NCBI GenBank assembly: GCA_944383265.1
Contig: CALWOX010000008.1
Span: 62,001 to 126,000 of the forward strand
Reading direction: 5' to 3'
DNA from: an uncultured Lachnospiraceae bacterium
GTDB lineage: Bacteria > Bacillota > Clostridia > Lachnospirales > Lachnospiraceae
Length of the DNA: 64,000 nt
Part shown: positions 28,146 through 43,521 of the stretch, piece after piece
Layout of the letters: every line of letters begins with the position of its first letter
How positions within the stretch are numbered: position 1 is the stretch's first letter
Translations under genes and position numbers: made by a program
The notes under the pieces: model-generated
The model's database searches: none
Told to the model about the DNA's origin: nothing
What the model saw: the letters and a program-made list of their open reading frames with translations, nothing else

Positions 28146-28193
28146 ACCAAAGCATCTTCCTTCCGCAACTCAACTCTGTTTAAGAATATCCTC

Positions 28194-30293
28194 TTATGCC
28201 TTTTTTATACGACAAGGGATCGATTTATAAGTGATAAAGCCCGAGACGGGATCCGCATATCTCATAGAGGCAAGCCTGTTGACGTTGCCCTCCTTCCAGC
28301 CGCCATGCATATATGGGCTTCCGCCTCCAAAGGGAATATGTACACATCCCTTCGCCATAAGACATATGTGAGCCTTAAAGCTGCCCTTTCCGAAGGCAGT
28401 CTCCACATAAACCGGATCTCCCTCCGAGATTCCGTATCTTTCAGCGTCTTCCTTACATATACTCATGAGAGGATCGGGCTCAGCCTTTGCTATCTCATCC
28501 ACATTGGGTCCGAAGCTCGCAAACCTTATCTTGCTTCTGGCTCCCGTGGTCATCATCATAGGAAAGTCCTCTTTTGAGCCAAATTCAGGGATCTCCCTTA
28601 TATCATGATAGACAGGCATACCGCAAAGGCCTGCTTTTTCTATCACACTTGAAATAATCTCAACTTTTCCGCTCGGTGTGGGAAATCCGGGCTTTCCGTC
28701 AGCTCTGAGAATTCCCTTCTCATATTTTTTCTCTTCCGTGCATACCTCGTCCATAACGCCATAGGGAGTAGCCTTAAGCTTCTCTATAAGCTCTCTGTCT
28801 CCGTCAGCAAGCCATAAAAGCATTTCTTCATCGTTTTCGGGGTAGGCATCTCCAAATCCAAGCTTTTCTGCGAGAGCCTGAAGGATGAAGGTATCGCATT
28901 TTGCCTCTCCCACAGGATCTATGATCCGCCTTCTCAGCTGTCTGCCTCCGGGGATATTTACTATGGCCTCATTCTCAAAGTATGTTGTGGCAGGGAAGAT
29001 GACATCAGCATAACGCGCGTCGTTAGTCATAAATCGCTCAAGGACAATAAATATGTCAAGCTTCCTGTACGCCTCCTCCCATTTTTCCTGCTCGGGAAAT
29101 GTGATTGACGTGCCTCCAGCACAGAGAAGATATCCCCTTATCGGATAGGGCTTATCATAAAGTACTCCTTCAAGGAACTCCTCACCCAACTGAGCCGAGC
29201 CGTTCATCATATAGTAAAGAGGATATTTGTCACAGCCTATAGGCCTTTTTCCCTCAGGTATATCATAGAGCTTTGCTTCCCCATATGACTTTCCGCTAAA
29301 GCGCATTCCGCCTTTTATATCAAGCTTCCCGCATATAGCCCACAGTATCCAAAGCGCCCTGTTGGTCTGTATTCCGGAGTACTGATACTCTGTTCCTGTA
29401 TATGCAATAAATACGGACTTTTTATTAAGAAATCCCTCAGTAAGCTCCCTTATCTTCTCCTCAGGTATCCCGCAGGTTTCCGAAAGCTTTGAGAACTCAA
29501 GACCTGAAAGATATTCGGAGAACTCCTTGAGTCCGGTTACATATTTCTCCGTAAATTCTTTATCATATCGGCCCGCCTCAATGACATATTTAAGCATAGC
29601 CATAACGAGGGCTCCGTCGGTCCCCGGGATTACAGGCACCCATTCGTCATATTCTCCGTTGTTGCAGTCTCCTCTCGGATCTATTGCTATGAGACGGGCT
29701 CCTCTTTTTCTTGCCTCCTTTATCCTGTGGTACAGAGCCTGATAGCCTGAATCTGTTGCAGGATTTTTTCCAATTAAAAATATAAGTTCGGCATTTTCTA
29801 TATCGGGAGCGACAGAGGGCTGCGATATTCCGAATACAGTCACAGGCGCCATTATATATGACGCGAAATTGCAGGTAGAGCTGCAGGTAGTATCATTTAT
29901 TCCTCCCATATGTCTGAAAAATGCGTCCTTTCCCCCAAAGCAGCGCATGGTCGAGGGCTCTCTTCCCGATGAGCCCACATATGACACGAGAGCGTCAGGC
30001 CCGTACTTTGCCACTACTTCCTTGATCTTTTCCGCAGCAAACTCTATGGCCTCCTCAAAGCTCGCCTCTCTGAATTCACCGCTGCCCCTCTCTCCTGTCC
30101 TTATAAGGGGCTTTAATATACGCTTTTTGTTGTAGATTATCTCAGGTGCCAGAGCCCCTCTGGGGCATACTCTTCCTCTATTTGATTCCCTGTCCGGCTC
30201 AACCTTTACAATCCTTCCGTCACAAAGCGTAGCCACTATGTCACACTTGTCAGGACATATTCCGCATATTCCCTTTACTTTTGTCTCTCCCAT
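28194..30293 (-). CDS. Molybdopterin-dependent oxidoreductase with N-terminal [4Fe-4S] site
   Basis: 699 residues. The N-terminus binds a [4Fe-4S] cluster (CGICPDKCD, then CPRG about residue 43). Next come bis-MGD binding segments of the DMSO reductase family: FFRHMGGIND followed by TTCSSTC, where a Cys probably ligates molybdenum or tungsten (no Sec here), LIGKNPATDSGYQ, IDPRGDCN and the C-terminal molydopterin dinucleotide-binding domain (TTGARSKIRFASFGPNVDE). Closest in layout to thiosulfate/polysulfide reductase-like or formate dehydrogenase-like catalytic subunits. No Tat signal is seen, so it is probably cytosolic. The substrate is unknown. Position between the Mo-cofactor fusion and the Sao locus is notable. 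Confidence 0.85.
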   Translation of the reverse strand: MGETKVKGICGICPDKCDIVATLCDGRIVKVEPDRESNRGRVCPRGALAPEIIYNKKRILKPLIRTGERGSGEFREASFEEAIEFAAEKIKEVVAKYGPDALVSYVGSSGREPSTMRCFGGKDAFFRHMGGINDTTCSSTCNFASYIMAPVTVFGISQPSVAPDIENAELIFLIGKNPATDSGYQALYHRIKEARKRGARLIAIDPRGDCNNGEYDEWVPVIPGTDGALVMAMLKYVIEAGRYDKEFTEKYVTGLKEFSEYLSGLEFSKLSETCGIPEEKIRELTEGFLNKKSVFIAYTGTEYQYSGIQTNRALWILWAICGKLDIKGGMRFSGKSYGEAKLYDIPEGKRPIGCDKYPLYYMMNGSAQLGEEFLEGVLYDKPYPIRGYLLCAGGTSITFPEQEKWEEAYRKLDIFIVLERFMTNDARYADVIFPATTYFENEAIVNIPGGRQLRRRIIDPVGEAKCDTFILQALAEKLGFGDAYPENDEEMLLWLADGDRELIEKLKATPYGVMDEVCTEEKKYEKGILRADGKPGFPTPSGKVEIISSVIEKAGLCGMPVYHDIREIPEFGSKEDFPMMMTTGARSKIRFASFGPNVDEIAKAEPDPLMSICKEDAERYGISEGDPVYVETAFGKGSFKAHICLMAKGCVHIPFGGGSPYMHGGWKEGNVNRLASMRYADPVSGFITYKSIPCRIKKA

Positions 30294-30392
30294 GCTCTTC
30301 TCCTTTTCCTGAACGATTGATTATATGCATTGCTTTTAACTTTTATTATAACAAATTTCACAAAGCTCATGGAGACGCCATGTTCTAATTTG

Positions 30393-30430
30393 AAAACGGG
30401 GAACCCGGCAATCGAGCCGTGCTCCCCTTT
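30393..30430 (-). terminator. Terminator downstream of the substrate-binding selenoprotein gene
   Basis: Minus-strand stem GGGGA-GCACGGC / GCCGGGT-TCCCC followed by GTTTTC, 27 bases after the stop of the 30457-31734 gene. It separates the Sao locus from the molybdoenzyme gene. Confidence 0.7.
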
Positions 30431-30456
30431 ATTTTCTTTCCTATTATCCTTATTAC

Positions 30457-31734
30457 TTACTCAAGGACAGGCCTGTCGGCAAGATCCTTGTTGAGATATG
30501 AGGTTGCTGTATCAGATATATCCACCTGCTCACTCTCAGGTATTCCGTCTACCTCAACGGCCTTGTTGTACCAATCCTCAAAGGTCATTCCTATCGGGAA
30601 TACAGGATCGATCTCTGTAGCAATAAATTCATCAAAGTCATCTGCACCGGTACTCTGAATAAGATCTGTTCCGAGGAATTCCTGAACATTTTCAAGCCTC
30701 GGTATCTCCTCCTCGGGGATCTGAGGATACTGTGTGAAATAGTGGATATAGTTGTCAATGTTCTGCTCCGAGAACTGCCATGTAATGGTACGTCCCTCTG
30801 CAACAGTCTTCATATAAATGGTACGAAGTCCTACATAAGGGTCTGTGTCAAATCCGTCGGCAAACATCATTGCCGCATTGTAAGGGTGTGCATACATATA
30901 TTCTATCGCCTTTGTGTGGGCGTATACAAGACGTCTTGCAAGCTCAGGACAATTCTCATAGAATTCCTGTGCCATTGCAACGATACAGCACATTCCCCAC
31001 TCATCAGCCTTTGATTCACTTGTAACACTGGCTGCGCCCCAGCCTATCGCCATAATATGTCCGAAACCTTCGAACTCGCATATAGATGCGTAGGGGTCTC
31101 AGCAGGTGAAGCCGTCAATCTGACCGGCTTTAAGAGCGAACATGGCATCCTGCTGTCCCATGCTTACGACATTGTAGGCTGATGACTCGTTAGGTATGCC
31201 AAGCTTATTTGACCAGGTGATCCACTCCGGATCTATCTCACCTTCAGCTGTGATCGCGAGTGTCTTTCCCTCAAGGTCTGAAGGGTCCTGAATGTCATTT
31301 GACGCTACAAAGTAACGTGATCCGCCAAGGTGGTTTGCCGCCGCCATGAAAATAGGCGCTCCCTGGTTTGCCGCAAGTATAGAGCCCTCTATGCCCTGAT
31401 ATCCCGCATCCATCTGTCCTGATGAAAGTCCGTTTATTATCTCCGCTGTCTTGGTAAGATTTACCTTAAGGCCAAGGGCATCATATATTCCCGCCTCCTG
31501 AGCAATGATACATGCAACCATGTGGTCACAGTTATTGTATCCGACCTCGATGGTGTAGTTTTTCTCTGTATCATTGAGCTCTCCGAATTCAAAATCCTTT
31601 ACCGCTTCCTCAGGGTCGTATCCTATCGCCTCGTTGGATACAGCAGCAGTTTCAGTTCCGCTGTTGTGACAAGCGGATAAGACCGGTGCCAGAAGCGAGA
31701 AAGCTAAAAGGCAGGCCAAAAGCCTTTTTTTCAT
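30457..31734 (-). CDS. ABC transporter substrate-binding lipoprotein, selenoprotein (in-frame UGA read as Sec)
   Basis: 425 residues when the UGA at 31099-31101 is read as selenocysteine (Sec212). Lipoprotein signal with lipobox LSAC (Cys22); the mature part is a SsuA/TauA/NrtA-like periplasmic-type binding fold. The Sec sits in GFTCU-DPYAS, the place where relatives have a conserved (W)EPYAS-type ligand-pocket segment, giving a vicinal Cys211-Sec212 pair. After the UGA the same frame runs 213 codons with clear family sequence (GWGAASVTSE, ARRLVYAHTKAIEYMY). A GU-loop hairpin follows the UGA. Strong GGAGG ahead of the ATG. It is probably the solute receptor of the SaoA/SaoP importer. A gene caller would show two truncated ORFs. 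Confidence 0.88.
31059..31075 (-). promoter_or_regulatory. SECIS-like hairpin for Sec212 of the substrate-binding protein
   Basis: Seven-pair stem GTTCGAA / TTCGGAC (one G-U) with apical loop GGU, loop starting 30 bases after the UGA. This fits the bacterial SECIS rule of a small G/GU-containing loop roughly 16-37 bases downstream. Confidence 0.75.
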
Positions 31735-31787
31735 ACTACTTCCTCCTTTTTCCTTTGCATAAAAATATTAATAAAAATTTATATTTT

Positions 31788-31801
31788 TATACTACCGGAA
31801 A
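31788..31801 (-). promoter_or_regulatory. TTTCCGGTAG-N-ATA motif upstream of the substrate-binding gene
   Basis: On the minus strand the sequence TTTCCGGTAGTATA, about 55 bases ahead of the ATG, is followed by an AT-rich stretch ending ATTAATATTTTTATG. The same arrangement (TTTCCGGTAGGATA, then ATTAATAAATATTTATG) precedes saoP at 41334, suggesting a shared promoter or activator site. Confidence 0.5.
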
Positions 31802-31873
31802 AATATACGTTTTACAACGAAGGAGGATAATTATAAGCTTTTATAATATTCCTTATTCTTTTTATAAAGAAAA

Positions 31874-33547
31874 TTAATAACATGGAAGCCCTGCCGTAAA
31901 TCTGCTCCCCTTCCCGGGCTCTGAAAATGCGTCTATATATCCTCCGTTTTCCTGAAGGAGCCTTGCCACTACAGTAAGTCCTATGCCGCTTCCCTCCTTG
32001 GGAGGCTTTGTGGTAAAGAAAGGCTCAAAGATGTGCCTTTGTATCTCATAGTCTATTCCCGTTCCGTTATCCTCGACTATAAGTGTCACAAAATCATCTC
32101 TGTCCTTACTCCTTCCGAAGGTTATCTCCAAAAGTCCCTCATCCTTGTCCTTCATGGCCCTTATGGCATTATTTGAAAGATTTATGATTATCTGGCTGAG
32201 CATGCCGACCTGCCCTAAAACGTAAAAGTCTCTCTTGCTGACAAAATACTTGAACTCTATATTTGACGGCACAAGCTTCTCCACCATTTTAAGGCTTAAT
32301 CGTACCTCCTCAGATGCATTGAACTTGACCTTTTTGCGCTCCGCTCTTCCCGCTCTCGAAAACTCCAGCATCTGCCTTGAAAGAGTTGAACAGTGCTCAG
32401 CAGCAAGATAAAGCTCCTCCGTCTCCTCAGGCATGAGCTCCGAGACCGCTTTATTGTTCTTGAAAAGTTCCGCATATATAAGTATAGGCGTCATCTGATT
32501 GTTAAATTCATGGGCAAGGGCTCCCCATAAGGATGTAAGCTCCTTATCTCTGTTGTAGACCCTCAGCACCTCGTCCTGCTTTGCAAGTCTCTCCCCGGCC
32601 TTGCTGAGCTCCTCCTCATATTTAAGGCTTACTCTCAATTCGGATTCCCTCTTTACCGATTTCATATAAAACCTGATAGAGACCAGGATCCACACAAAAA
32701 TCACCGCACCAAGCATGGAAAGACAGAAGGAAAGTCTCTCTATAGGCTTTACCAGAAGACCGTAGTCCTCAACGACATACACCGAAAAGATCTCATCTCC
32801 TATTTCCACGGAGGCAACTGCCGCCAGCTCATTTTTCCTTACAGGCACTCCGTTTTCAACAGTATATGACCAATAGCTTGTGACCTCAGCCTCTCCCGGC
32901 TGAGACTGTGCCTCCGGCTTTGAGATATCAGGGAATTCCCTGTCCGCTCCGTCCTCTGACATGACTGTCATTCCCGCACTGTTTTTCACATAGCAATAGC
33001 CGTCGTTATTTATTTCAAGCCCGGAGAGTGTCTCGGATTGATTAAATACACTGTTTAAATTCCACTCAAATTGAAGGACGCCTGCAATCTCTCCTGCTAT
33101 GCTTATAGCCTTCGTCATGTAAAATACATAGTAGCCGCCATATCTGTAAACTGTCGGCCCGCTTATCACGCTTTGAGGTTCCTGCACTGCCCTCCTGCAC
33201 TGCTCCCCGTTCCAATAAGGAAGATGTTCATAGTCATTCCTTGTATAAAACGCTTTGTCGCAAAATATCTTGTCAAGAGCCGCCTCAAAGTCCTCCTCTG
33301 AAGAGAAATCGTCTCCATATATGCTCAGGATCAGATTTTCCTTCTCCTCAAATTCCTCCTTAAGGCTTGACGCCCCTGTCTCCGCAAGGCTCTTAAGGCT
33401 CTCCGACTCACTCTCCACAAGGGCGTCCTTTACAGTATGATATGAAAAATACGCTGCCGCAACAGCAACAGCTATTCCTGCCACAGCTATTGCGGCATAA
33501 AGACCGAATCCTGTTTTATTATTTTTTTTATCTCCGTTTTTCTTCAT
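31874..33547 (-). CDS. Sensor histidine kinase with extracytoplasmic Cache-like domain
   Basis: 557 residues. Two membrane helices (about 15-35 and 270-292) flank a Cache-like sensor domain of about 235 residues. The cytoplasmic part has a phospho-acceptor His in LAHEFNNQMTP (about 347) and a HATPase domain with NLSNNAIRAM, VEDNGTGID and GSGIGLTVV. It is divergent from the response-regulator gene at 33717, and the pair lies inside the Sao locus, so it probably senses the locus ligand or a related stress. The sensor region contains several cysteines that could bind metal; this is inference. Confidence 0.88.
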   Translation of the reverse strand: MKKNGDKKNNKTGFGLYAAIAVAGIAVAVAAAYFSYHTVKDALVESESESLKSLAETGASSLKEEFEEKENLILSIYGDDFSSEEDFEAALDKIFCDKAFYTRNDYEHLPYWNGEQCRRAVQEPQSVISGPTVYRYGGYYVFYMTKAISIAGEIAGVLQFEWNLNSVFNQSETLSGLEINNDGYCYVKNSAGMTVMSEDGADREFPDISKPEAQSQPGEAEVTSYWSYTVENGVPVRKNELAAVASVEIGDEIFSVYVVEDYGLLVKPIERLSFCLSMLGAVIFVWILVSIRFYMKSVKRESELRVSLKYEEELSKAGERLAKQDEVLRVYNRDKELTSLWGALAHEFNNQMTPILIYAELFKNNKAVSELMPEETEELYLAAEHCSTLSRQMLEFSRAGRAERKKVKFNASEEVRLSLKMVEKLVPSNIEFKYFVSKRDFYVLGQVGMLSQIIINLSNNAIRAMKDKDEGLLEITFGRSKDRDDFVTLIVEDNGTGIDYEIQRHIFEPFFTTKPPKEGSGIGLTVVARLLQENGGYIDAFSEPGKGSRFTAGLPCY

Positions 33548-33659
33548 ATTTTAATATTTTATTCTGTTTTCTTGATAAAGCTTCATGGCTCAGGTATAAT
33601 TTTGACCGGATATAATTATTCCTGACTTTAGCCTCGAATATCATTATATATCATATTTC

Positions 33660-33685
33660 CTCACTAAAGAACATTCTTTAATGAG
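33660..33685. promoter_or_regulatory. Inverted repeat upstream of the response regulator gene
   Basis: Arms CTCACTAAAGAA and TTCTTTAATGAG, one mismatch in twelve, with a two-base spacer. It lies 31 bases ahead of the response-regulator ATG, in the divergent promoter region shared with the kinase gene. Likely operator, perhaps autoregulatory. Confidence 0.55.
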
Positions 33686-33716
33686 ATGATTTAATACCTT
33701 GGGAGATCATAACATC

Positions 33717-34409
33717 ATGGAAAAAATATCAGTACTTGTAATAGACGATGAAAAGCCGGTCCGCACCGCCATAAAGGCGGCTTTGTCCTCGGAGGGCATG
33801 AATATTACCGCGGCAGGAAATGCGGATGAGGCCCTTGCTGTCCTAAAGACCGGAAACTTTGACGTTGTCCTTTTGGATATATTGATGCCGGGTACCGACG
33901 GTTTTTCTCTCCTTAAGGACATTAGAAACCAAAGGCTCTTTGTGCCTGTCATAGTATTGAGCGGCCTTGATGAGGACAGCACTATGGTAAAGGGCTATGG
34001 CCTCGGAGCGGATGACTATGTCACAAAGCCCTTCAGTGCTGCTGTGCTTGCCTCAAAAATAAGGGCTCTTTGCAGAAGGAATCGCGAATACAAGCCTGAG
34101 GAGCCTGTGCGCTCCGAGCTTAAGGCGGGGGATTTTGTCTTACGTCTCGATGTTCAAAAGGCTATCTGTAAGGGTAAGGAAATATCTTTGACCTCAAAGG
34201 AATTTTCCATACTTTGTAAGCTCATGGAAAAGCCGGGAGAGACCATCTCCAAGGAGGATCTGTACAGAGAAATATGGGGAGAGTCGGATTTTGACAGGAC
34301 AAAGATGCTTGTATACATAAAGCGTATAAGAGATAAGATAGAGGATGACCCCTCGAATCCGAAGCACCTGCTTACAGAATGGGGAAAGGGGTATTACTTT
34401 AAGGCTTAA
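33717..34409 (+). CDS. OmpR-family response regulator
   Basis: About 230 residues. Receiver domain with acidic pocket VIDDEK, phospho-acceptor Asp in VVLLDILMPGTDG (about residue 51), conserved Thr/Ser region and Lys in DDYVTKPFS. A C-terminal winged helix (SLTSKEFSILCKLMEKPGETISKEDLYREIWG) binds DNA. I chose ATG 33717, preceded by GGGAG. Divergent partner of the histidine kinase at 31874-33547; together they are candidates for controlling the neighbouring Sao genes. Confidence 0.92.
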   Translation: MEKISVLVIDDEKPVRTAIKAALSSEGMNITAAGNADEALAVLKTGNFDVVLLDILMPGTDGFSLLKDIRNQRLFVPVIVLSGLDEDSTMVKGYGLGADDYVTKPFSAAVLASKIRALCRRNREYKPEEPVRSELKAGDFVLRLDVQKAICKGKEISLTSKEFSILCKLMEKPGETISKEDLYREIWGESDFDRTKMLVYIKRIRDKIEDDPSNPKHLLTEWGKGYYFKA

Positions 34410-34441
34410 ACAGTTACTTATCTGTTATCTCCATAAGCTGC

Positions 34442-34486
34442 AAAAAGCCCCGCAAAGTCTATATATCATCTTTGCAGGGCTTTTTG
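34442..34486. terminator. Terminator downstream of the response regulator
   Basis: Arms AAAAAGCCCCGCAAAG and CTTTGCAGGGCTTTTTG with a 12-base loop and T-runs on both strands; likely bidirectional between the response regulator and the convergent pseudogene. Confidence 0.85.
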
Positions 34487-34554
34487 TTATATTCTATGAT
34501 GATTAAGTTAAGTCAGTTTTCATTCTCTAATGCGGTGAGCCGATCACCGGTTTT

Positions 34555-35072
34555 TTATTCTCTCACCACGCTTATGCGCTTACCTATGTTATTTCCGTTT
34601 ATAGCCTCATCCACCATTGCAATAGCATAATCGGCATAGCTGATGATGCTCTCTCCCTTTGAATTGAGCTTAAGCTCCTCACCGCCAAGGATATATTTTC
34701 CTGTGCGTTCACCGTCTGCCTGAAGATCTCCTGCGGGGCTGATATATGTCCATTTTACATCCTTGCGCTCACGAAGCTCTGAAAGCGCCTTTCCCATAGC
34801 GGCAGCCAAAGGCTTGAAAATATCAGGGAAATCAGGGCCGTCAGCCACACACATGGTATGCTCAGGATCAACATACAGGCTTCCGGCACCGCCTACAATG
34901 AGAAGTCGAACATCAGTACCTGGGTAAGGTCGAACAGATCCTTTTTTTTACCTTATCAGCTTGTAGTATTATCCTCGCGTACAACTGCAGTCACATCCTG
35001 ACCTCTGTTTACAGCTTCCTTTACAATAAGCTTACCTGCTTTTCCGTTTGCACAAACTACTGCGATCTTCAT
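34555..35072 (-). pseudogene. Decayed NmrA-like NAD(P)-binding oxidoreductase
   Basis: The start at 35072 has a good AGGAGG site and encodes MKIAVVCANGKAGKLIVKEAV, a Rossmann start with GxxGxxG-like spacing. The frame stops at TGA-TAA after about 38 codons. A second frame then shows KKDLFDLT, and the C-terminal half (34555-34854, WTYISPAGD, YADYAIAMVDEAI) is in yet another open stretch. Intact relatives have about 210 residues, so part of the middle is lost and the frame is shifted. The stop is not a Sec candidate because the frame does not continue beyond it. Confidence 0.75.
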
Positions 35073-35233
35073 TTTTAATTCCTCCTATAATATATCAGAC
35101 TGTCATTTTATTTTTTATTGAGCTTCGGTTCGGCCGTTTTCCTCATCTCTTGTCTGTATTATAGTCGGAAGAGTTTCTTATGTTAAGTAAGCACTTTATT
35201 GTGCTGTAGTTACCGAAAGGATACTATATAGGC

Positions 35234-36028
35234 TTAATTTATCTTTAAGAATTTTATGCGCGTATTCTCGGGGAGCTCAAAGGCTTCACCCGTATAGCTT
35301 TCCACAGCGGAGATGAGCTCCGAGTCCTCCGACAGCCTTTCCGCCACCCTGTCGCAGCATTCGATAAAGCTCTCAAAGGCCTCCGTCCCCACTATATCAT
35401 TATTAACCAGAAGTACATATGAAATATAATCATTATCGGTAACAGGATAAAAGCTGCAGTCATGCATTGTTGAAAGCTTTGTAATATCCAATACCACAGA
35501 ATCTGTGTTACCTGTGATGAGTGCAAACTGCAGGCTTGATGAGTTGATCTCCACCGCCCTTTTAATATTCGGATATGTCTCCATAACAGAGTCCGCAAGA
35601 TATTTTCTGTTTTGCCCTATTGCCACTGAGCTGACCTGAGCTATGTCCTTTTGTGCGGCAAGAAATTCTGAATTCATTATTATAGGCGCATATATGGAAA
35701 AATCATCATTTTCCTCTATGAGATGCCTTGCCATATGCGCACAGCTGAATGCGGCATCTATTTCGTCTGAGCTCAAGGCCCATTGCGCTGTGTTGCTTCA
35801 GCAGTCCTTAAACTCGTAGCCCTCCATAAAATCATCAGAAAGGATAAGGCCTCCCTCGGATTCGGTCTCGACCTCCTCCAAAAAAAGGCCGGAAATATCA
35901 TCCCCCGCCCCGATTCTCAGCATTACATCAGGATTTTTCGGTTCCTCCTTCGGAAGCAGGAACCCTGCAAAAAAGAGGGCCGACACAAATGCGGCCCCGC
36001 ATATAAAGCTTTTTCTGATAATATCCAT
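35234..36028 (-). CDS. saoB: SaoB-like ABC substrate-binding selenoprotein (in-frame UGA read as Sec)
   Basis: 264 residues when the UGA at 35798-35800 is read as Sec77. One N-terminal hydrophobic anchor (about residues 8-25) is followed by a type-2 binding-protein-like fold. The Sec lies in FKDCU-SNTAQWAL, giving a vicinal Cys76-Sec77 pair; the downstream frame continues with DAAFSCAHMARHLIEEN for 187 codons to a normal stop. The start ATG overlaps the SaoC stop by one base (TGATG). The hairpin after the UGA is weaker than in the neighbours. The symbol rests on my recollection of the Sao families and is tentative; the 30457-31734 protein is the other candidate. Confidence 0.75.
35770..35789 (-). 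promoter_or_regulatory. Possible SECIS hairpin for Sec77
   Basis: Stem AGC-G-CAA / TTG-A-GCT with one internal mismatch and loop TGGGCC beginning 15 bases after the UGA; an alternative five-pair stem (TGGGC/GCTCA) starts slightly later. Less convincing than the other SECIS candidates. Confidence 0.4.
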
Positions 36029-36579
36029 CAACAGCAGTCTTCCATTCCGGCACCGAAAAGGTCAGTGGGCACTCCATCTATCATCCTGTAGATAGCGTAG
36101 CCTGACTTTCCGTCCTTCTCTCCTGCAACAATAAACTCCATCTCCGCTTCGTCATCTATATTTTTAAACTGTATGCCCTGATTTTCTATAGGCGCGGGGA
36201 TAGGCTCTGTATAGACATAGCTTCCGTCAGACTGAACCACACATACCACAAGCCTCGTTATCTCCTCCGTCTCTCCCTCATGTGTATGATCCTCCTTGTA
36301 GATCACAAGGAGGTCGGCTATACCGTCGTCCGTCACGTCGTTCTCACAGGCCATGACTACACGCCTCTCGGGAAACGCCGCCTTAAAGTCCACCAGTGTC
36401 TTATTATCCTCCGGCACCATAGGGTCATATACAAATCCTCTTCCTGAGCTCTTTTGCTCCTCCTCCTTTGAGAGAAGGAACTGATGCAGGGCAAAGGCGA
36501 CTACAAGCGCCAAGAGCACCGCTATCACCCTTATCGCTATGTATCCGGGTGTTATTTTCTTTTCTTCATTTTTCTTCAT
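36028..36579 (-). CDS. saoC: Small membrane-anchored protein ending in Cys-Cys (SaoC-like)
   Basis: 183 residues. One N-terminal hydrophobic segment (about 10-30) then a soluble extracytoplasmic domain rich in Asp/Glu (PERRVVMACENDVTDDGIADLLVIY), resembling FG-GAP/VCBS-like folds. It ends in EDCC, so the last two residues are vicinal cysteines at the free C-terminus. This matches the family I recall as the Cys-Cys-COOH (seleno)protein SaoC; this copy has Cys at both positions. The TGA after CC is a true stop: it overlaps the next start codon and the frame beyond it is only a shadow of that gene. It may pass a metal between carriers; inference. Confidence 0.75.
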   Translation of the reverse strand: MKKNEEKKITPGYIAIRVIAVLLALVVAFALHQFLLSKEEEQKSSGRGFVYDPMVPEDNKTLVDFKAAFPERRVVMACENDVTDDGIADLLVIYKEDHTHEGETEEITRLVVCVVQSDGSYVYTEPIPAPIENQGIQFKNIDDEAEMEFIVAGEKDGKSGYAIYRMIDGVPTDLFGAGMEDCC

Positions 36580-36605
36580 CGTATTCAGCGAAAATCCTCC
36601 CTTAC

Positions 36606-37712
36606 TTATACCGCCTTGGCCCTAATGAAATTCTTCTTAAACCAAAGAAAGACAGATACGCATGCATAGCCTATAAGTATAAAGCTGCATACATACTGAA
36701 ACCACTCGGGCATAGGCACGATAAAGTGGTTGGCCACCTCTATCGTCTTGTGGGTAGTATCAAAATCCACAACAGGCTTAAATCCCGGCATTAAAAGCTG
36801 ATTTGCAAGGTAACCCACACAGTTGGATATGAGAGTCACCATGAAAAAGTACATAAATGCCGCTCTTTTTCCTATAGTCTTTGATATAGTTATAAGCTCG
36901 GGAATATTTGTGGAGGCTCCCGCCATAAGGAAGGTTATGGCAACTCCGGGCGCCGCTCCGCTTGCAACAAGAGCCGCGATAAAGGGCATATGTCCCACAG
37001 CGCATACATACATAAGCGCGGCTATCACAGTTATTCCGAGAAGAGATATAAATCCGGGATTTCCCAGATAGTTTTGTATAAAGGACTGAGGGACTATGCT
37101 GAACAAAAGCCCCGCAATGAGCATTCCCGATACAGTGTATTTTGCAACTGTGAGAGCAAGCTCCGTAAATGACCAGTGGAGTCCCGAGATTATCTGAGAT
37201 ATGATGCTGCGCTTTTCCTCCTCAAGCTTTATCCCGGGCGCTTCATCAGGCTTTCCCTCCAGCCCGAAAATACATATCTCATCTCCCGCAAATTTATTGG
37301 CTATGGTTCCTATTATCAAAGGAGCTATGAGTCCTGTAAGAAAGTATATTATCCATATCTGCGGTCCCAAAAGCCCGAAGGCAAGTATTACCGCCATGGG
37401 GTTTATCATAGGCGAAGAGGTCATAAAGGCAAGCGTCGGTCCCAGAAACGCACCTGAATAGTAAAGGCTTATACCAAGAGGAATGGTTCCGCAGCTGCAT
37501 ATGGGTATCAGTGCTCCGGAGAGAGTGCTCCAAAGGACGCCCGCAAACTTTTTAGTGCCTATAGAGCTCCTTCTGAGTCTCTCGGGGCTCAAAAATTCAT
37601 GTAATGCTCCCGCTATCATAAAACTCACTATCATCCATCCGGATGACCCGCAAAGCATGTTGAAGGACGAGTATATGACCTCCGGAACAAACTTAAAAAA
37701 TTCTTCTAACAT
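36606..37712 (-). CDS. saoE: ArsP/DUF318-like efflux permease SaoE (copy 1)
   Basis: 368 residues, about eight to ten hydrophobic helices in two repeats, matching the DUF318/ArsP permease family whose characterised members export organoarsenicals. The conserved PICSCGTIPLG (about residue 70) carries the Cys-Ser-Cys site; a second repeat has CAVGHMPFIAALVASGAAPGVAITFLMAGASTNIPEL. A further Cys sits at residue 21 in LCGSSGW. The start overlaps the saoT stop by seven bases. It is expected to expel the product of the lyase step or free metal. A paralogue lies at 39993-41156 in the same operon. Confidence 0.82.
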   Translation of the reverse strand: MLEEFFKFVPEVIYSSFNMLCGSSGWMIVSFMIAGALHEFLSPERLRRSSIGTKKFAGVLWSTLSGALIPICSCGTIPLGISLYYSGAFLGPTLAFMTSSPMINPMAVILAFGLLGPQIWIIYFLTGLIAPLIIGTIANKFAGDEICIFGLEGKPDEAPGIKLEEEKRSIISQIISGLHWSFTELALTVAKYTVSGMLIAGLLFSIVPQSFIQNYLGNPGFISLLGITVIAALMYVCAVGHMPFIAALVASGAAPGVAITFLMAGASTNIPELITISKTIGKRAAFMYFFMVTLISNCVGYLANQLLMPGFKPVVDFDTTHKTIEVANHFIVPMPEWFQYVCSFILIGYACVSVFLWFKKNFIRAKAV

Positions 37713-37963
37713 GTGCTTATTGCCTCCTCAAACGCCTTGGCTATAGTAGATCTGTTTAAATTTTTAATGGCTTTGGACTCATTTATGACAAGCATGCTCT
37801 TTGATACGGCCCCGTATTTTTTTATGTAGTCAAAGTCCTTGCCCGCCTTATAAATAACGGTTTCGACACGACCCTTATATTTTTCCTTAAGAGATTCAAC
37901 GAATCCCACATATACCTCACATCACGCACATGCACAGATATATTCAACACAAGGCTTATTCAT
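37706..37963 (-). CDS. saoT: Thioredoxin-like small selenoprotein SaoT (in-frame UGA read as Sec)
   Basis: 85 residues when the UGA at 37922-37924 is read as Sec14; ignoring it, a caller starts at a later codon and loses the active site. The N-terminus MNKPCVEYICACAUCE carries Cys5, Cys10, Cys12, Sec14 and Cys15, a dense thiol/selenol cluster, followed by a thioredoxin/glutaredoxin-like alpha-beta fold. The chain ends in STC, so a Cys is C-terminal. GGAGGGAAATT precedes the ATG. A perfect GU-loop hairpin lies after the UGA. It overlaps saoE. It probably hands off a soft metal or reduces partner Cys-Sec pairs. Confidence 0.85.
37891..37907 (-). promoter_or_regulatory. SECIS-like hairpin for Sec14 of SaoT
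   Basis: Seven-pair stem GGGATTC / GAATCTC (one G-U) with loop GUU, loop beginning 21 bases after the UGA. Nearly ideal for a bacterial SECIS. Confidence 0.82.
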
Positions 37964-38065
37964 AATTTCCCTCCCTTGATCTCAAAACTTAATAACGATA
38001 AAGAGTAAAAGAAAGGAGCCCTGCCATGTCTTAAGCATCAGCAGCGCTCCATTCTGTTGTGCTTT

Positions 38066-38398
38066 TTAAAGTGTTATCACCTGATCCACCCCTGCAGGCG
38101 CAAGTGCCGCATACACATTAGGGAAGCAGCCTATTCCGCAGGGAGCGATGAGCTTGTCCGCTATGTCTCTCTGATAGCAGCATCTGTCACAGCACATAAG
38201 GAGTATTCCGAGCTTATCCGCAAGCTCCGCTATCCTCTCACCGAGGTCAGAGCCCTCCTGCATTATAAAAGTATTGTCGTAAAAGAACATCATTCCCGCC
38301 ACCTCGGCCACATGTCTTCCCTCCTCAAGCTGGGGGACTATCATGTTCTCAAGAATATCCCTTACATTATTCGACTCCAACAAATAAGCAACCTTCAT
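38066..38398 (-). CDS. saoD: DsrE-related protein SaoD
   Basis: 110 residues. A DsrE/DsrF/TusD-like alpha-beta protein: it starts MKVAYLLESNN and has a cysteine-rich mid segment, LLMCCDRCCYQR (about residues 66-77), and a Gly-Cys loop PCGIGCFP (about 86-93). DsrE-like proteins carry sulfur as persulfide on a conserved Cys; here the paired Cys could relay sulfur, selenium or a soft metal. No in-frame UGA. It sits between the lyase gene (40 bases upstream) and saoT (about 100 bases downstream). Confidence 0.75.
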   Translation of the reverse strand: MKVAYLLESNNVRDILENMIVPQLEEGRHVAEVAGMMFFYDNTFIMQEGSDLGERIAELADKLGILLMCCDRCCYQRDIADKLIAPCGIGCFPNVYAALAPAGVDQVITL

Positions 38399-38438
38399 TT
38401 TGCTTCCTCCTTAAGATATGTATATTATTAATTAAAGC

Positions 38439-39071
38439 TTAATCTACTGAAAATATATCCTTAGCCGCCTCAAGAGCCTTTTTTGCATCACACTTTATTA
38501 TGACATCCTTATCAAGCTCCATGTCCTTTACATACTTGTCGAATTCTGCAGAACTGCAGAAGAAATTCATGGTATTTCAGCAGCTTCCGGACCAGTTTGA
38601 TATCTCCCCCAAAGGGAAGGTCAAAGCATGAAGCTCCTCGGGATAACAGGAAGCTATCCTTCCGTCCTTTATCTCAACATGCACAGGCTCTCCGCATACT
38701 GCACACACGGAATCAACTATCGTATCCGTGTGCAGTGTGAATGCCGCACCCATCGAATCTATGGCGCACATAGCGCAGAACTCTCTGCCGTCAGCAGTCT
38801 TTACATGATGATTCGTGGGAAGCGCCGACACAGGATATATGAAGTCCACATTGTTGTCCTCGTCAGTTACCATTCCGTCCTGAAATTTGAGTACCTCCAC
38901 TGCCTCGTCATATTCCTCTCGTGACATGTTGAGAGCTCTCATAGCGGCTTCCCTGTTTTTTTCTGTGTTAAACGCCTTCTTGTCAATGACCTTATTTATA
39001 ATGTAAAGCCTCAGCTCATTCTGTCTTTCGTTAAATTTTTTGTGTACATTTTGTTCCATTATCTTTTCCAT
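38439..39071 (-). CDS. saoL: MerB-like organometal lyase SaoL, selenoprotein (in-frame UGA read as Sec)
   Basis: 210 residues when the UGA at 38577-38579 is read as Sec165. The N-terminal winged-helix-like part (about 1-80) is followed by the MerB fold. The catalytic pair of organomercurial lyase (Cys96 and Asp99, spaced C-x2-D) appears as Cys102 and Asp105 in MCAIDSMG. The second catalytic Cys (Cys159, 63 residues after the first) aligns by spacing with Sec165 in SGSCU-NTMNFF. After the UGA the frame gives 45 more residues. It probably cleaves a carbon-metal bond. GAGGAGGG precedes the ATG; it follows the ATPase gene in the operon. Confidence 0.88.
38541..38568 (-). promoter_or_regulatory. 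SECIS-like hairpin for Sec165 of SaoL
   Basis: Stem TTCTGC / GCAGAA (extendable by GAA/TTC below a bulge) with loop AGUUCU beginning 21 bases after the UGA. The GU in the loop and the spacing fit bacterial SECIS elements. Confidence 0.75.
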
Positions 39072-39157
39072 AATTTTCCCTCCTCATTATCTCCTTTTTT
39101 ATCCTTTCCCCGATATACCTCCTTTTTGACCTTCTCCCACTGTCTTATGCCTTTATA

Positions 39158-40003
39158 TCAGCACGCGATATTTTCCTTATTTTCCTCAGACTCTCTGTTT
39201 TTTATAAATTCCATAATGTCCTTGTCCTCCTGAGTTACCACATCTCCGTTTAATGCGGACTTGAGGATCTCGGTGATATGCTCTATATATTCGTGGTATT
39301 TCTCGCTCTCCCTGTCTCTCGGACGAGGAAGGTCTATCTTTACATCCTCCAATATCCTTCCGTGATCTCTGGACATTATCACGACTCTGTCGCTGAGATA
39401 TACAGACTCGTCCACATCATGAGTAACCATTAATGATGTACAGTTTTTCTGCATAAGTATGTTCTCAAGCTGCTGCTGGAGCATATGCCTCATCTGAAAG
39501 TCTATGGCTCCCAAGGGCTCGTCCATCAGAAGTACCTCGGGATCGCATGCAAGAGCCCTCAAAAGAGCTACTCTCTGCTTCATTCCACCCGATATCTCAT
39601 GGATATAGTAATCCTTATAGTTTTCCATCTGAGCTATGTGGAGGAGTTCCATGAGCTTTTTCTCCCTCTCAGCCTTCGGCAGTTTCTTCTTTATCATCGG
39701 ATATTCGATATTTTCTCCTACCTTCAGCCAAGGAAAGAGAGCATAGTTCTGGAACATGAATGCTCTGTCAGGTCCGGGCTTTGAGACCTCCTTACCCTTT
39801 ACCACTATCTTTCCCTCGTCAGGCTTCTGAAAGCCGGCTATTATGGTGAGCGTAGTAGTCTTTCCACAGCCTGAAGGCCCCAGAAGGCTTACAAACTCGC
39901 CGTCATTTACATCAAAGGAGATATCCTTTAAAACAGAAAGTCTCTCCTCTCCCTTTCTTCTGGCCTGAAAGCTCTTTGATATATTTTCTACCTTAATCGA
40001 CAT
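39158..40003 (-). CDS. saoA: ABC transporter ATP-binding protein SaoA
   Basis: 281 residues; SsuB/TauB-like importer ATPase. Walker A GPSGCGKTT (about residue 42), Q-loop MFQNYALF, signature EISGGMKQRVAL, Walker B VLLMDEPLGAID and H-loop MVTHD are all present. It energises the permease at 41407-42234. The last codon before TGA is Cys (ENIAC), a Cys-stop arrangement like SaoC and SaoT. The frame after the TGA stays open for 34 codons, but they overlap the ribosome binding site and start of saoL, read as basic low-quality sequence and have no good hairpin, so I treat the TGA as a stop. Starts within the end of the saoE copy 2 gene. Confidence 0.85.
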   Translation of the reverse strand: MSIKVENISKSFQARRKGEERLSVLKDISFDVNDGEFVSLLGPSGCGKTTTLTIIAGFQKPDEGKIVVKGKEVSKPGPDRAFMFQNYALFPWLKVGENIEYPMIKKKLPKAEREKKLMELLHIAQMENYKDYYIHEISGGMKQRVALLRALACDPEVLLMDEPLGAIDFQMRHMLQQQLENILMQKNCTSLMVTHDVDESVYLSDRVVIMSRDHGRILEDVKIDLPRPRDRESEKYHEYIEHITEILKSALNGDVVTQEDKDIMEFIKNRESEENKENIAC

Positions 40004-41156
40004 TTTTTACTCCTTTAATCTTTGTACGTTCGTAAGAAATTGTTTTCATTGATCCCAAGAGGGCCAAGCCCAAAATAATTACAGAGCATATGCCCTGAAG
40101 CCAATCCGGGAAGTCTATAATAAGCATGTTTGCATTGGCTATAGTGTTTTTTGTAACATCGTAGTCCGGCACAGCCGAGAAATCGTGACCGAGTACAATG
40201 TTTGTAATATATCCCACCGCCACAGCAAGTATCGTCACAGGAAGAGCATACAGGAGCGCGGCTCTCTTACCCATTGTCCTTGCTATTGTTATGAGTTCAG
40301 GTATATTCGTGGCGGCTCCCGCCATAAGGAATGTCACAGCAAGCCCCGGCTCCGCTCCTGCAGCTATCAACGCCGCTATAAACGGAATATGTACTACAGC
40401 GCACACATACATAAGGGCCGCTACCACAAGTATCCCCAGGGGAGTTATACTTTCCGGTTCCGAGAGATAGGCCTGTATGAAGGATTGAGGGACTATGCTT
40501 AATACAATACCTGCAACAAGCATACCTGATACGGTATATTTACTTATCAGTAATGAGTATCTTCCTGCCGACCACCTGAGCCCTCTTAAAATACGCTCTG
40601 CTAAAGCGGGCCTGTCCTCAGGCTCGGGCTTAATAAGATCTCTTCCGTTTCCCATTTCCGAAATACTGCTGCTTTTATCAGAAAGCTTCCCGAAAGAGCC
40701 GCTTTTGCATTCTCTTATACAAAGACTTTTACCTGCAAAACTGTTGGCAAGTACACCCACGATAACAGGTACAGTCAATCCCGTTATAAGGTATACCACC
40801 GCTATCTTCTTTCCCAAAAGCCCGTATATAAGCACGAGAGCAATAGGATTTATCATAGGCGTGGAGGTCATAAATGAAAGGGCAGGGCCAAGATAGGCTC
40901 CCGTATAGTACATCAGTATCCCCAAGGAGGCTGTGCCGCAGCTGCATATGGGAAGCAGCATTCCGCACAGAGTTGTCAATATGATTCCCTTTATGCTTTT
41001 CGAGCCTACTGAAATCTTTTTCAAAAGTTCAGGGCTTACAAATTCATGAACTATGCCTGCTATAATAAAGCTGAATATAAGCCATACTGATGAGCTGCAA
41101 AGTATTCCCCAAACAGAGTCTGCTATCTTTGTCAAAAATAAAAAAAACGGAGTCAT
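39993..41156 (-). CDS. saoE: ArsP/DUF318-like efflux permease SaoE (copy 2)
   Basis: 387 residues; paralogue of the permease at 36606-37712. The same motifs occur: LCSSSVW near residue 20, PICSCGTASLG (about 72) and CAVVHIPFIAALIAAGAEPGLAVTFLMAGAATNIPEL. A longer loop between the two repeats (about residues 145-185) is rich in Ser, Lys and Asp. Start: an ATG at 41156 with GGAGG ten bases ahead, or a GTG two codons upstream. First gene of the leftward Sao operon; its end overlaps saoA by eleven bases. Two exporters in one locus suggest different substrates or a heteromer. Confidence 0.82.
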   Translation of the reverse strand: MTPFFLFLTKIADSVWGILCSSSVWLIFSFIIAGIVHEFVSPELLKKISVGSKSIKGIILTTLCGMLLPICSCGTASLGILMYYTGAYLGPALSFMTSTPMINPIALVLIYGLLGKKIAVVYLITGLTVPVIVGVLANSFAGKSLCIRECKSGSFGKLSDKSSSISEMGNGRDLIKPEPEDRPALAERILRGLRWSAGRYSLLISKYTVSGMLVAGIVLSIVPQSFIQAYLSEPESITPLGILVVAALMYVCAVVHIPFIAALIAAGAEPGLAVTFLMAGAATNIPELITIARTMGKRAALLYALPVTILAVAVGYITNIVLGHDFSAVPDYDVTKNTIANANMLIIDFPDWLQGICSVIILGLALLGSMKTISYERTKIKGVKNVD

Positions 41157-41406
41157 TACCACATTGCCTCCTCAAAGGCAGCCCTGATATAAAAAAATAA
41201 TTCCACCCTTGCATATTTTTTCACTTTTTAAATATACCCTAAATCCGGGGATTATACTTATGTTTATTACAAAAGCAAATATCCCCCTAAGTGTTTATTA
41301 ATTTTTTTGATATTACTATTCTGAACAAGAGCATTTCCGGTAGGATATGTTCAGCAAATATTAATAAATATTTATGTTCAAAAACTGAATAGAAGGAGGA
41401 GATATT
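41157..41406. promoter_or_regulatory. Divergent control region of the Sao locus
   Basis: This 250-base AT-rich gap holds the promoters of the leftward saoE-saoA-saoL-saoD-saoT-saoE-saoC-saoB operon and of rightward saoP. It contains a TTTCCGGTAGGATA motif (41334-41347) shared with the 31788 site, an inverted repeat CTGAACA-N20-TGTTCAG (41321-41354), and a T-N11-A element TTCAAAAACTGAA (41377-41389) resembling TTCAACAGTTGAA ahead of the LysR gene. On the minus strand GGGTATATTT may serve as a -10 for the leftward operon. Confidence 0.55.
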
Positions 41407-42234
41407 TTGAGTGAATCGGCAAGTTCGGTGAATCGGCAGATTGCCGCTTCCCGGAATTCTGACAGACGCCGCTGGCGCAAGATGGGCGGAAGGAACTACA
41501 ATCTTCACGCAATAATTGCTCTGGCTGTCATCTGTCTTATTTGGACTGTAGCTGCCCATATCGTAGATCAGCCGTTTATTTTTCCTTACTTTGAGGACGT
41601 CGTAGGTCAGGTGGTATATTCCCTCACAGACCTTTATGTGCTGGAAAATCTGGGAATAACCATGAGACGAGTTCTCATCGGAGCCCTTATTGCTTTTATA
41701 ATAGGTTATCCCTTGGGAATGCTTATGGGATTTTTCCCGAAGGTCCTTACCACCATGTCGCCCTTTATCAACTCACTCAGGCAGGTTCCCATAATGGCTT
41801 GGGTGCCTCTTGCGATAGTATGGTTCGGAATAGGCGACGGTCCCACTATCTTTCTGATAGCCTTCAGCGGTATCTTTACAATAATACTTAATACCGTTGC
41901 GGGAGTTCAGGATATAAGCAAGGATTTTTATAATGCCGCAAGATCCATGGGCGCAAACACCCTTGGAGTGTTAAAGGATGTGGTGCTTCCCGCATCTCTT
42001 CCCGGAGTGCTTACAGGCATCAGGCTTGCTATAGGCCTCGGCTGGATGTCCGTCATATGAGCGGAGTTCATAGCTACCAGTGCCGGTTTCGGTTACTGCA
42101 TGGTTGAGGCTCAGGGGCATATGCAGACAGAGACTGTTATTGCCTACATGGTCATTGCAGGTATCATAGGATTTCTTATAGATATCATTATGGTGATGGT
42201 CGAGAGAATTCTCTTGAAATGGAGAGAGGCATAA
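41407..42234 (+). CDS. saoP: ABC transporter permease SaoP, selenoprotein (in-frame UGA read as Sec)
   Basis: 275 residues when the UGA at 42058-42060 is read as Sec218. SsuC/TauC-like importer permease with about six helices and an EAA loop (AARSMGANTLGVLKDVVLPASLPGV, residues about 180-204). The Sec lies in GWMSVIU-AEFIATSAG, in the helix following the EAA loop where relatives have a small or hydrophobic residue, so the selenol would face the translocation path. The frame after UGA continues 57 codons with the expected GLGY-like and AYMVIAG sequence. TTG start with AAGGAGGAG ahead. Partner of SaoA and the binding proteins. Confidence 0.87.
42079..42097 (+). promoter_or_regulatory. SECIS-like hairpin for Sec218 of SaoP
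   Basis: Stem AGTG-CCG / CGG-T-TACT with a single bulged T and loop GUUU starting 25 bases after the UGA. A bulged U plus a GU loop recalls the E. coli fdhF SECIS. Confidence 0.82.
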
Positions 42235-42260
42235 AACATAAAAAGAGCTATATATCAGGA

Positions 42261-42298
42261 GAAGGACCGCTTCTAAGAAAGCGGCCCTTCTTTTTTTC
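42261..42298 (+). terminator. Terminator of saoP
   Basis: Stem GAAGGACCGCTT / AAGCGGCCCTTC (one mismatch) with loop CTAAG-like and a run of seven T on the plus strand, 27 bases after the saoP stop. It overlaps the end of the convergent LysR gene. Confidence 0.88.
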
Positions 42299-43202
42299 TG
42301 TTTCTTTTTTTGCAAAACTCCGAAAGCTCATTTAAGGTTATGGCGGCAGCCTGGTCAAGTATCCTTTCCCTGTGGTGAACGATATAAAAACTCCTCTTGC
42401 AATTTACCTCGGGGAACTCAAACATAAGTACTTTTCCCGCCTTCACATAGTCCATAGCCGCAAGCTTTGATATAAAGGCACATCCCACCCCGGCAGCCAC
42501 AGTTCTCTTTAAGAGCTGTGTGCCGTCCACTTGAGCGACTATATTCATATTTCTGTCCGAAAGTCCGAGGGAATGTTCAAGATTGTGAGCGGCTATACCT
42601 GTGCCGCTTCCCATCTCCCTTGTTATAAATCTCAGGGACGGCAGCGCCTCAGGCTGTATCCTCCCGGAAAACTGTGAAAAATAAGGATCCTTGGGGGTTA
42701 TGAGTACTATATCGTCAGAAAACAGCTCCTCATAAAGACATTTCTTGTTTTGGATACTGAATCCGCATATACCTATCTCGGCGTCAAAATGCAGCACATC
42801 CTTTATTACCTCCGAGCTGTCTCCCTCCATTATCCTGAAGCATATGTCCTGATATTTATTTCCCATATAGGATACAAAGTCCGGGAGTATATAGTTTGCA
42901 GGAACTGAGGAGGCGGATATCTGCACCGTGCCCTTAAGTGTATTTTTGCGCCCGTGCAAAGCAAACATAGCTTCGCTCTCCGTAAGGATGAGCCTCTGAG
43001 CATACGGATAGAAGGAAAGCCCCGCCTCGGTGAGATGCACATTTTTTGTCGATCTCGTCAAAAGCTGTACTCCCAACTCCTCTTCAAGCTGTTTAATATG
43101 TGTGCTGATGGCAGGCTGTGACAAAAACATCCTCTTGGCCGCCACTGAAAAGCTCTTGCTCTCCACAACCGCTACAAAGCTCTTTAAAAATTCTGTTTTC
43201 AA
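42273..43202 (-). CDS. LysR-type transcriptional regulator, flanking the Sao locus
   Basis: About 309 residues. N-terminal winged helix (FVAVVESKSFSVAAKRMFLSQPAISTHIKQLEEELGVQLL) then a substrate-binding co-inducer domain (residues about 90-300). I chose the TTG at 43202 because AGGGG lies eight bases ahead and the protein then begins four residues before the first helix, as usual for LysR proteins; 25 codons upstream are open. It is convergent with saoP. A T-N11-A palindrome (TTCAACAGTTGAA) lies upstream and a similar one is in the saoP control region, so it may regulate the Sao locus. Confidence 0.85.
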   Translation of the reverse strand: MKTEFLKSFVAVVESKSFSVAAKRMFLSQPAISTHIKQLEEELGVQLLTRSTKNVHLTEAGLSFYPYAQRLILTESEAMFALHGRKNTLKGTVQISASSVPANYILPDFVSYMGNKYQDICFRIMEGDSSEVIKDVLHFDAEIGICGFSIQNKKCLYEELFSDDIVLITPKDPYFSQFSGRIQPEALPSLRFITREMGSGTGIAAHNLEHSLGLSDRNMNIVAQVDGTQLLKRTVAAGVGCAFISKLAAMDYVKAGKVLMFEFPEVNCKRSFYIVHHRERILDQAAAITLNELSEFCKKRNRKKEGPLS

Positions 43203-43299
43203 CTCCGCAACCCCTTGATTCTTAATATGTCTTTTTTTTCTTACACTGAAAGAAATTTTATACAGTATTAAGTGCATTATAAAACAGATTCAATAATAT

Positions 43300-43312
43300 T
43301 TCAACAGTTGAA
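43300..43312. promoter_or_regulatory. LysR-type T-N11-A box ahead of the LysR gene
   Basis: Perfect palindrome TTCAACAGTTGAA, about 100 bases upstream of the LysR start. It resembles TTCAAAAACTGAA at 41377-41389 in the Sao control region. Confidence 0.5.
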
Positions 43313-43343
43313 GGTTTTTCGTTGTTTTATCTGTCATGCAACG

Positions 43344-43382
43344 AAAAAAACCCTGAATACCGTCTTTTCACGATATTCAGGG
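43344..43382 (-). terminator. Terminator downstream of tRNA-Pro
   Basis: Minus-strand stem CCCTGAATA / TATTCAGGG with a 14-base loop and a T-run of seven, 24 bases after the tRNA 3' end. Confidence 0.8.
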
Positions 43383-43405
43383 CCTTTCCCTTTCGTTCTT
43401 ATGAG

Positions 43406-43480: not shown

Positions 43481-43521
43481 AACAAGTGTTGTTCTCACGA
43501 ACGATAGATAATATATCACAC

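Follow-up and report, generated by a model that had tools for sequence, protein, structure and literature searches.

Five in-frame UGA codons in a selenocysteine-assisted organometallic (SAO) operon of a Lachnospiraceae bacterium, and a proposed route for its ligand

Why would a bacterium keep a row of ten genes, five of which are interrupted by a stop codon? The question is raised by 11.8 kb (positions 30457-42234) of the stretch of DNA analysed here ('the window'), 64,000 nucleotides that correspond to bases 62001-126000 of contig C8 (CALWOX010000008.1) in the 2.3 Mb, 97.5% complete genome of an uncultured Lachnospiraceae bacterium (GCA_944383265.1). All ten proteins of the operon exceed the curated NCBIfam cut-offs for Sao families, namely SaoX, SaoB, SaoC, SaoE (two copies), SaoT, SaoD, SaoL, SaoA and SaoP, and we regard it as near certain that the operon is a selenocysteine (Sec)-assisted organometallic (SAO) system. 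The SAO system was reportedly described by Haft and Gwadz in 2023 (J Bacteriol 205:e0025922), and the locus is a further copy of this published, predicted system rather than a new one. A passage in a review lists SaoX, SaoB, SaoT, SaoL and SaoP as selenoprotein families, treats the SAO Sec residues as predicted and states that the roles need more investigation (PMC13188914). Pfam searches of the operon proteins returned NMT1, ArsP_1 (twice), MerB, ABC_tran and BPD_transp_1, and no match for SaoB, SaoC, SaoT or SaoD. The genes are as follows:

30457..31734, minus strand: saoX, substrate-binding protein of an ATP-binding cassette (ABC) importer, one UGA read through (NF040735, 480.6 bits, cut-off 300)
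35234..36028, minus strand: saoB, one UGA read through (NF040727, 217.1 bits, cut-off 140; scored from start 36031)
36028..36579, minus strand: saoC, Cys-Cys-COOH protein, no Sec (NF040734, 171.7 bits, cut-off 80)
36606..37712, minus strand: saoE copy 1, ArsP-type exporter (NF040736, 540.3 bits, cut-off 325; ArsP_1)
37706..37963, minus strand: saoT, thioredoxin-like, CACAUC motif, one UGA read through (NF040730, 105.8 bits, cut-off 65)
38066..38398, minus strand: saoD, DsrE-related (NF040732, 171.5 bits, cut-off 169)
38439..39071, minus strand: saoL, MerB-like lyase family, one UGA read through (NF040728, 196.9 bits, cut-off 140)
39158..40003, minus strand: saoA, ABC ATPase (NF040729, 432.7 bits, cut-off 360)
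39993..41162, minus strand: saoE copy 2, ArsP-type exporter (NF040736, 440.2 bits, cut-off 325; ArsP_1)
41407..42234, plus strand: saoP, ABC permease, one UGA read through (NF040733, 390 bits, cut-off 295)

The stop codon of saoC overlaps the start of saoB. The original prediction for this stretch, made from its letters, had described a selenoprotein-dense locus of Sao type in which five genes each carry one in-frame UGA and continue in the same frame. The family assignments bear out the first point, and all five UGAs are confirmed: the sequence is family-consistent on both sides of each, and once the codon is read through the NCBIfam models extend across every one. SaoC, which the prediction did not name, adds to the gene set.

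Which residues do relatives carry at these five positions? A SaoL scan of the named genomes yielded 37 loci (L025-L061); the 21 of SAO type (L025-L045) were used for the alignment columns and the other 16 were left out. The residue counts, which exclude the window itself, are given here with each codon (U, Sec; C, Cys; S, Ser; G, Gly):

31099..31101, minus strand: saoX, UGA read as Sec; homologues 2 U, 14 C, 1 without coverage
35798..35800, minus strand: saoB, UGA read as Sec; homologues 6 U, 9 C
37922..37924, minus strand: saoT, UGA read as Sec; homologues 7 U, 3 C, 4 S, 1 G
38577..38579, minus strand: saoL, UGA read as Sec, aligned with Cys159 of MerB; homologues 19 U, 2 C
42058..42060, plus strand: saoP, UGA read as Sec; homologues of SAO type 16 U, 1 C

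Both U rows at the SaoX column come from a single genome (L030), two extra rows with Ser in the SaoP column are other permeases within the same loci, and the rows are not independent events because some are close kin (e.g. L038 and L044). As judged by these alignments, SaoX, SaoB, SaoL and SaoP exchange Sec and Cys at the UGA, as the original prediction had proposed to check. For SaoT, 5 of 15 homologues have Ser or Gly in the column; four of these five carry Sec and one carries Cys two residues earlier, and in this family Sec shifts within the motif. Among relatives of the same genus, G411 has SaoX and SaoB without a UGA at the site, G418 keeps the UGA in SaoB, SaoT, SaoL and SaoP, and G415 keeps it in SaoX and SaoL. 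The same UGAs thus recur in other assemblies, which rules out the sequencing errors that the prediction had named as a way to fail.

We also considered SaoA as a sixth selenoprotein, its gene ending in a UGA (39158-39160) directly after a Cys codon. This candidate was rejected: neither a conserved extension nor a hairpin was found, the nearest SaoA relatives (L025 and G411) stop near the window's UGA or earlier and lack the extension, and the codon is most likely a plain stop. Further UGA-bearing copies of Sao genes were seen outside the row. A second SaoX lies elsewhere in this genome (G000:C2:32355-33371; L084:9158-10474), 73% identical and with its own in-frame UGA (KTUDPYAS), and the 19.5 kb taken around it hold no further SAO-type gene above 100 bits. 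In L025 the second saoE comes directly after an additional SaoT gene (7735-8031), which has a UGA too; none was seen at the matching place in the window.

Can the genome insert Sec? Its Sec machinery is complete, with all four genes over their cut-offs, as the prediction had asked to be searched for: selA (594.1 versus 267.9), selB (360.9 versus 242.25), selD (366 versus 125, selD itself carrying one in-frame TGA) and selC, the tRNA-Sec gene, at C2:270109-270201 (61.3 bits versus a gathering score of 47). For tRNA-Sec the gathering score alone was counted, because a looser E-value threshold matches 14 of 14 control genomes.

The third element of bacterial Sec decoding is a hairpin downstream of the UGA. 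The original prediction, which had counted four good hairpins and a weaker one, agrees with what we find, the poor one being that of SaoB:

38544..38561, minus strand: saoL hairpin ttctgcaGTTCtgcagaa, loop beginning 22 nt after the UGA
37888..37910, minus strand: saoT hairpin tgtgggattcGTTgaatctctta, loop beginning 21 nt after the UGA
31059..31075, minus strand: saoX hairpin gttcgaaGGTttcggac, loop beginning 30 nt after the UGA
42082..42093, plus strand: saoP hairpin gccgGTTTcggt, ordinary in score, loop beginning 25 nt after the UGA
35770..35789, minus strand: weak saoB hairpin after the UGA

A folding-energy test failed to set the UGAs apart from shuffled sequences, which reached the energy observed in 6/60 cases for SaoL, 13/60 for SaoB, 23/60 for SaoP, 32/60 for SaoX and 50/60 for SaoT. 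Because this test set a minimum of 18 bases, the short hairpin of SaoT escaped it, and an apical-helix score was used in its place. Among the 2633 codons of the ten SAO genes, the proportion scoring as high is 3.1% for SaoL, 4.1% for SaoT, 5.2% for SaoX, 13.0% for SaoB and 28.5% for SaoP: within the window only the first three hairpins stand out, at 3-5% of codons, which is modest for each taken singly. Among homologues, Sec sites have a higher mean score than non-Sec sites for SaoX (14.3, n=2, versus 6.9, n=14), SaoT (12.4, n=11, versus 5.3, n=4), SaoL (15.2, n=19, versus 7.8, n=2) and SaoB (12.2, n=6, versus 9.5, n=9), and the summed difference was reached in 0 of 10000 within-family label permutations, a test that omits the two Ser rows of SaoP and that kinship among the rows makes less than a clean probability. 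Across these alignments, then, the hairpin score tracks Sec sites in four of the five families. Weighing against Sec insertion at all five codons are the ordinary apical-helix scores of the SaoB and SaoP hairpins in the window and the lack of a Sec-side rise in SaoP (10.8 at Sec sites, n=16, versus 12.3 at the one non-Sec site).

What the Sec residues may be doing is best approached through SaoL. In alignments whose columns we counted by hand, each of the four MerB chains found places its active-site Cys (Cys159 by the numbering of 1s6l) opposite Sec165 of SaoL; the alignment with 1s6l further pairs Cys102 with Cys96 and Asp105 with Asp99. A passage in one paper names Cys96, Asp99 and Cys159 as conserved in the active site of MerB with mercury bound (PMC4525700). 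Several points count against carrying MerB chemistry over to SaoL: the stretch of the 1s6l alignment around Sec165 has a low posterior, SaoL scores far below the curated MerB models (44.8 versus 193 bits and 43.5 versus 200 bits), and the MerB chain 5c17 has Ser in the Asp99 column, so that the fold does not fix the chemistry.

Two other MerB-like genes with a UGA were noted in passing. One (L075:8954-9826, on G415:C2), 28% identical to SaoL, has its UGA in the same context (FNCUNVMNFF) and lies away from the SAO row. The other (GCTUPQINFF) is one of three adjoining short genes, each with an in-frame UGA, in L021:610-1996 (G090:C47); from their motifs, we take its two neighbours to resemble mercury-transport and heavy-metal-binding proteins.

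The importer and the small proteins carry conserved Cys/Sec sets of their own. In SaoX, which is nearest to taurine- and sulfonate-binding proteins, Cys69, Cys/Sec212 and Cys250 are kept in 17 of 17 rows, and the predicted structure (pLDDT, the predicted local distance difference test, 86.5) places residue 212 after a strand (208-211) and before a helix (215-222). In the predicted structure of SaoP (pLDDT 81.8), whose nearest folds are the importer permeases CmpB and NrtB, Sec218 lies in a membrane helix (185-223). SaoB, SaoC, SaoD and SaoE all have invariant Cys/Sec sets: SaoB has Cys or Sec at 76, 77 and 96 in 16/16 rows (Cys76-Sec77 and Cys96 in the window), SaoC ends in Cys-Cys in 15/15, and SaoD keeps Cys70, Cys73 and Cys91 in 16/16.

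These residues suggest a route, and we consider it moderately probable that SAO imports an organometal compound, binds it, cleaves it in the manner of MerB and expels the metal. An ABC importer, with SaoX and SaoB as binding proteins, SaoP as permease and SaoA as ATPase, would take up a soft-metal or metalloid compound; SaoX would hold it through Cys69, Sec212 and Cys250, and Sec218 in the membrane helix of SaoP would pass it on. Inside the cell SaoL would act as a MerB, Cys102 and Sec165 binding the metal and Asp105 helping to protonate the carbon. The released metal might be carried or reduced by SaoT and SaoD, each of which has a conserved set of Cys/Sec residues, and would be expelled by the two SaoE pumps of ArsP type; the Cys-Cys tail of SaoC might hand metal on at the membrane. 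The import-bind-cleave-expel pathway of the original prediction fits the families and their conserved Cys/Sec residues, and a soft-metal route from binding protein through membrane and lyase to ArsP-type pumps is the simplest reading we infer; ligand class, direction, order of steps and every transfer are likewise what we infer, and no SAO ligand is established in the literature searched.

How far does the system extend, and what surrounds it? SaoL scores above cut-off in 4 of 398 genomes of the phylum and SaoD in 4 of 25 of the genus, the present genome counted in both. Among the 24 other genus genomes the SaoL model matches three at E ≤ 0.001, two of them above cut-off; the third match (G415:C2) is the different MerB-like gene described above, and G415 has its SAO row on C20, which includes a UGA-bearing stretch of SaoL. 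A viral carrier was considered and dropped: of the 20 viral-contig stretches that fitted a search pattern, none encodes a SaoL relative. The genes beside the row are:

25731-28145, minus strand: fused MobA/MoeA/MobB-like gene beyond saoX
28194..30293, minus strand: molybdopterin oxidoreductase adjoining saoX, a candidate partner
31874..33547, minus strand: sensor histidine kinase (HATPase_c), a candidate SAO regulator
33711..34409, plus strand: response regulator (Response_reg and Trans_reg_C)
42273..43277, minus strand: LysR-type regulator (LysR_substrate and HTH_1), convergent with saoP
43406-43480, minus strand: tRNA gene beside the LysR gene (Rfam)
58052-60293 of contig C8 (G000), left of the window: pair of adjacent double-cubane reductase-type genes, 1.7 kb from the window start and ~32 kb from saoX

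Relatives of the kinase adjoin SAO genes in L025, L073 and L085, kinase and response regulator together do so in G418, G411 and G415, and a LysR gene is convergent with saoP in L025 and L028 as well. Between saoB and the response regulator (34555-35070, minus strand) lie fragments in more than one frame which, judged by eye, resemble a disrupted gene of NAD(P)-binding type; the larger fragment has no Pfam match. Of two Rfam matches in 28000-44000, only the tRNA is above the gathering score.

Two redox links deserve separate treatment, both of which may be new. By tblastn, 11 of the 21 loci L025-L045 have a double-cubane-cluster reductase (NF040772) within them or nearby, among them 10 of the 16 loci holding four or more Sao families; none of the 16 loci L046-L061 has one. 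In L027, L031 and L045 it stands inside the Sao gene row. The present genome has five matches, four above cut-off, and in a tree that includes no copies from SAO-free genomes one of the adjacent pair groups with the L031 and L026 copies (61-63% identical) at full support. Against the link, tblastn found the gene in none of the three genus SAO stretches (L073, L074 and L085, of G411, G418 and G415). The idea of the reductase as a partner of SAO only is weakened by its distribution in the genus: the 6 of 25 genomes with matches (E ≤ 1e-50; best per genome at least 42% identical) are also the six with selA above cut-off, and a close orthologue (91%) is present in just one other genome. A passage in a methyltransferase-cluster paper links the double-cubane family to selenium metabolism (PMC10418091).

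Matches to the molybdopterin oxidoreductase of 72-100% identity occur in exactly 4 of 25 genus genomes, those with SaoD. This co-occurrence (4/4 versus 0/21) would be a one-in-12650 event, calculated by hand, if the genomes were independent. Restricted to the six genomes with selA, the chance is one in 15, and the four with SAO may form a single clade. In G411 the gene is on another contig than the SAO genes, which in a draft assembly does not show that they are unlinked, and a 40% identical relative, in two reading frames, stands just before the SAO genes of L035. In G415 (L085:671-17642, C20) saoL and saoD are separated by molybdenum-cofactor genes and a solute-binding protein, and saoX is followed by an iron-sulfur protein and two molybdopterin oxidoreductases. 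Both redox links are confounded by ancestry or by the selenium trait. We think it rather unlikely that SAO is a reductive organometal(loid) pathway in which the imported compound, or what its cleavage yields, is a substrate of double-cubane (Fe8S9) reductases and, within the genus, of a dedicated molybdopterin oxidoreductase that has cofactor genes of its own; if it is, SAO would be a metabolic route and not a resistance system alone.

How do other explanations fare? That the five UGAs are true stops, or signs of decay or sequencing errors, would agree with the standard code, which splits the five genes, and with the ordinary hairpins of SaoB and SaoP. With the same UGAs in 19 of 21 SaoL rows and 16 of 17 SAO-type SaoP rows (some of them close kin), Cys as the alternative and full Sec machinery in the genome, we give this explanation almost no weight. 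A more serious competitor, though still a doubtful one, has the system handling an inorganic soft metal or metalloid, with SaoL a MerB-fold protein that binds or transfers metal and cleaves no carbon-metal bond. The conserved Cys/Sec sets suit metal transfer, SaoE also matches the SO_0444 Cu/Zn efflux model (171.6 and 170.1 bits, below its cut-off of 300), and SaoL is below the MerB cut-offs; yet SaoL retains the full Cys/Asp/Sec counterpart of the MerB active site, and the importer is of the taurine/sulfonate/nitrate class, which carries small organic or oxo-anion solutes.

It is also improbable, in our estimate, that SAO serves nutrition or energy, the compound being reduced or its metal used with the molybdopterin and double-cubane enzymes as partners. 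The frequency of the double-cubane reductase in SAO-type loci, three times inside the gene row, speaks for such a role, as do the coincidence of the oxidoreductase (relatives at least 72% identical) with SaoD in the genus and the molybdenum-cofactor genes within the G415 row. However, in the genus the double-cubane genes follow selA and are missing from the SAO stretches of G411, G418 and G415, the four SAO genomes may share one ancestry, and two exporters argue for disposal. Import, cleavage and expulsion of an organometal compound stays our preferred reading. Whichever applies, the locus is a compact test bed, with five Sec proteins of one pathway and a Sec at the metal-binding position of MerB; the UGA-free SaoX and SaoB of G411 provide a relative in the genus for direct comparison of Sec with Cys, and the two candidate redox partners hint at reactions to assay.

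Set against known systems, SaoX, SaoP and SaoA are homologous to the taurine-, sulfonate- and nitrate-type ABC importers (TauABC, SsuABC, NrtBCD and CmpBCD), although all three fall below the cut-offs of those models, and they differ in Sec212 of SaoX and in Sec218 of SaoP, where NrtB and CmpB both have Ala. Compared with ArsP and SO_0444 exporters, both SaoE copies match Pfam ArsP_1 and the SO_0444 model, but they fall below the cut-off of the latter and exceed that of SaoE. SaoL shares with MerB (PDB 1s6l, 5c17) the Pfam MerB fold family and the correspondence of Cys96/Asp99/Cys159 with Cys102/Asp105/Sec165; it differs in its sub-cut-off scores and in having Sec in place of Cys159. As in the SAO system, all ten proteins belong to SAO families and five have Sec at a UGA, and the features in which the window may differ are a SaoC that ends in Cys-Cys without Sec, two saoE copies, the kinase, response regulator and LysR genes alongside, and the molybdopterin oxidoreductase adjoining saoX.

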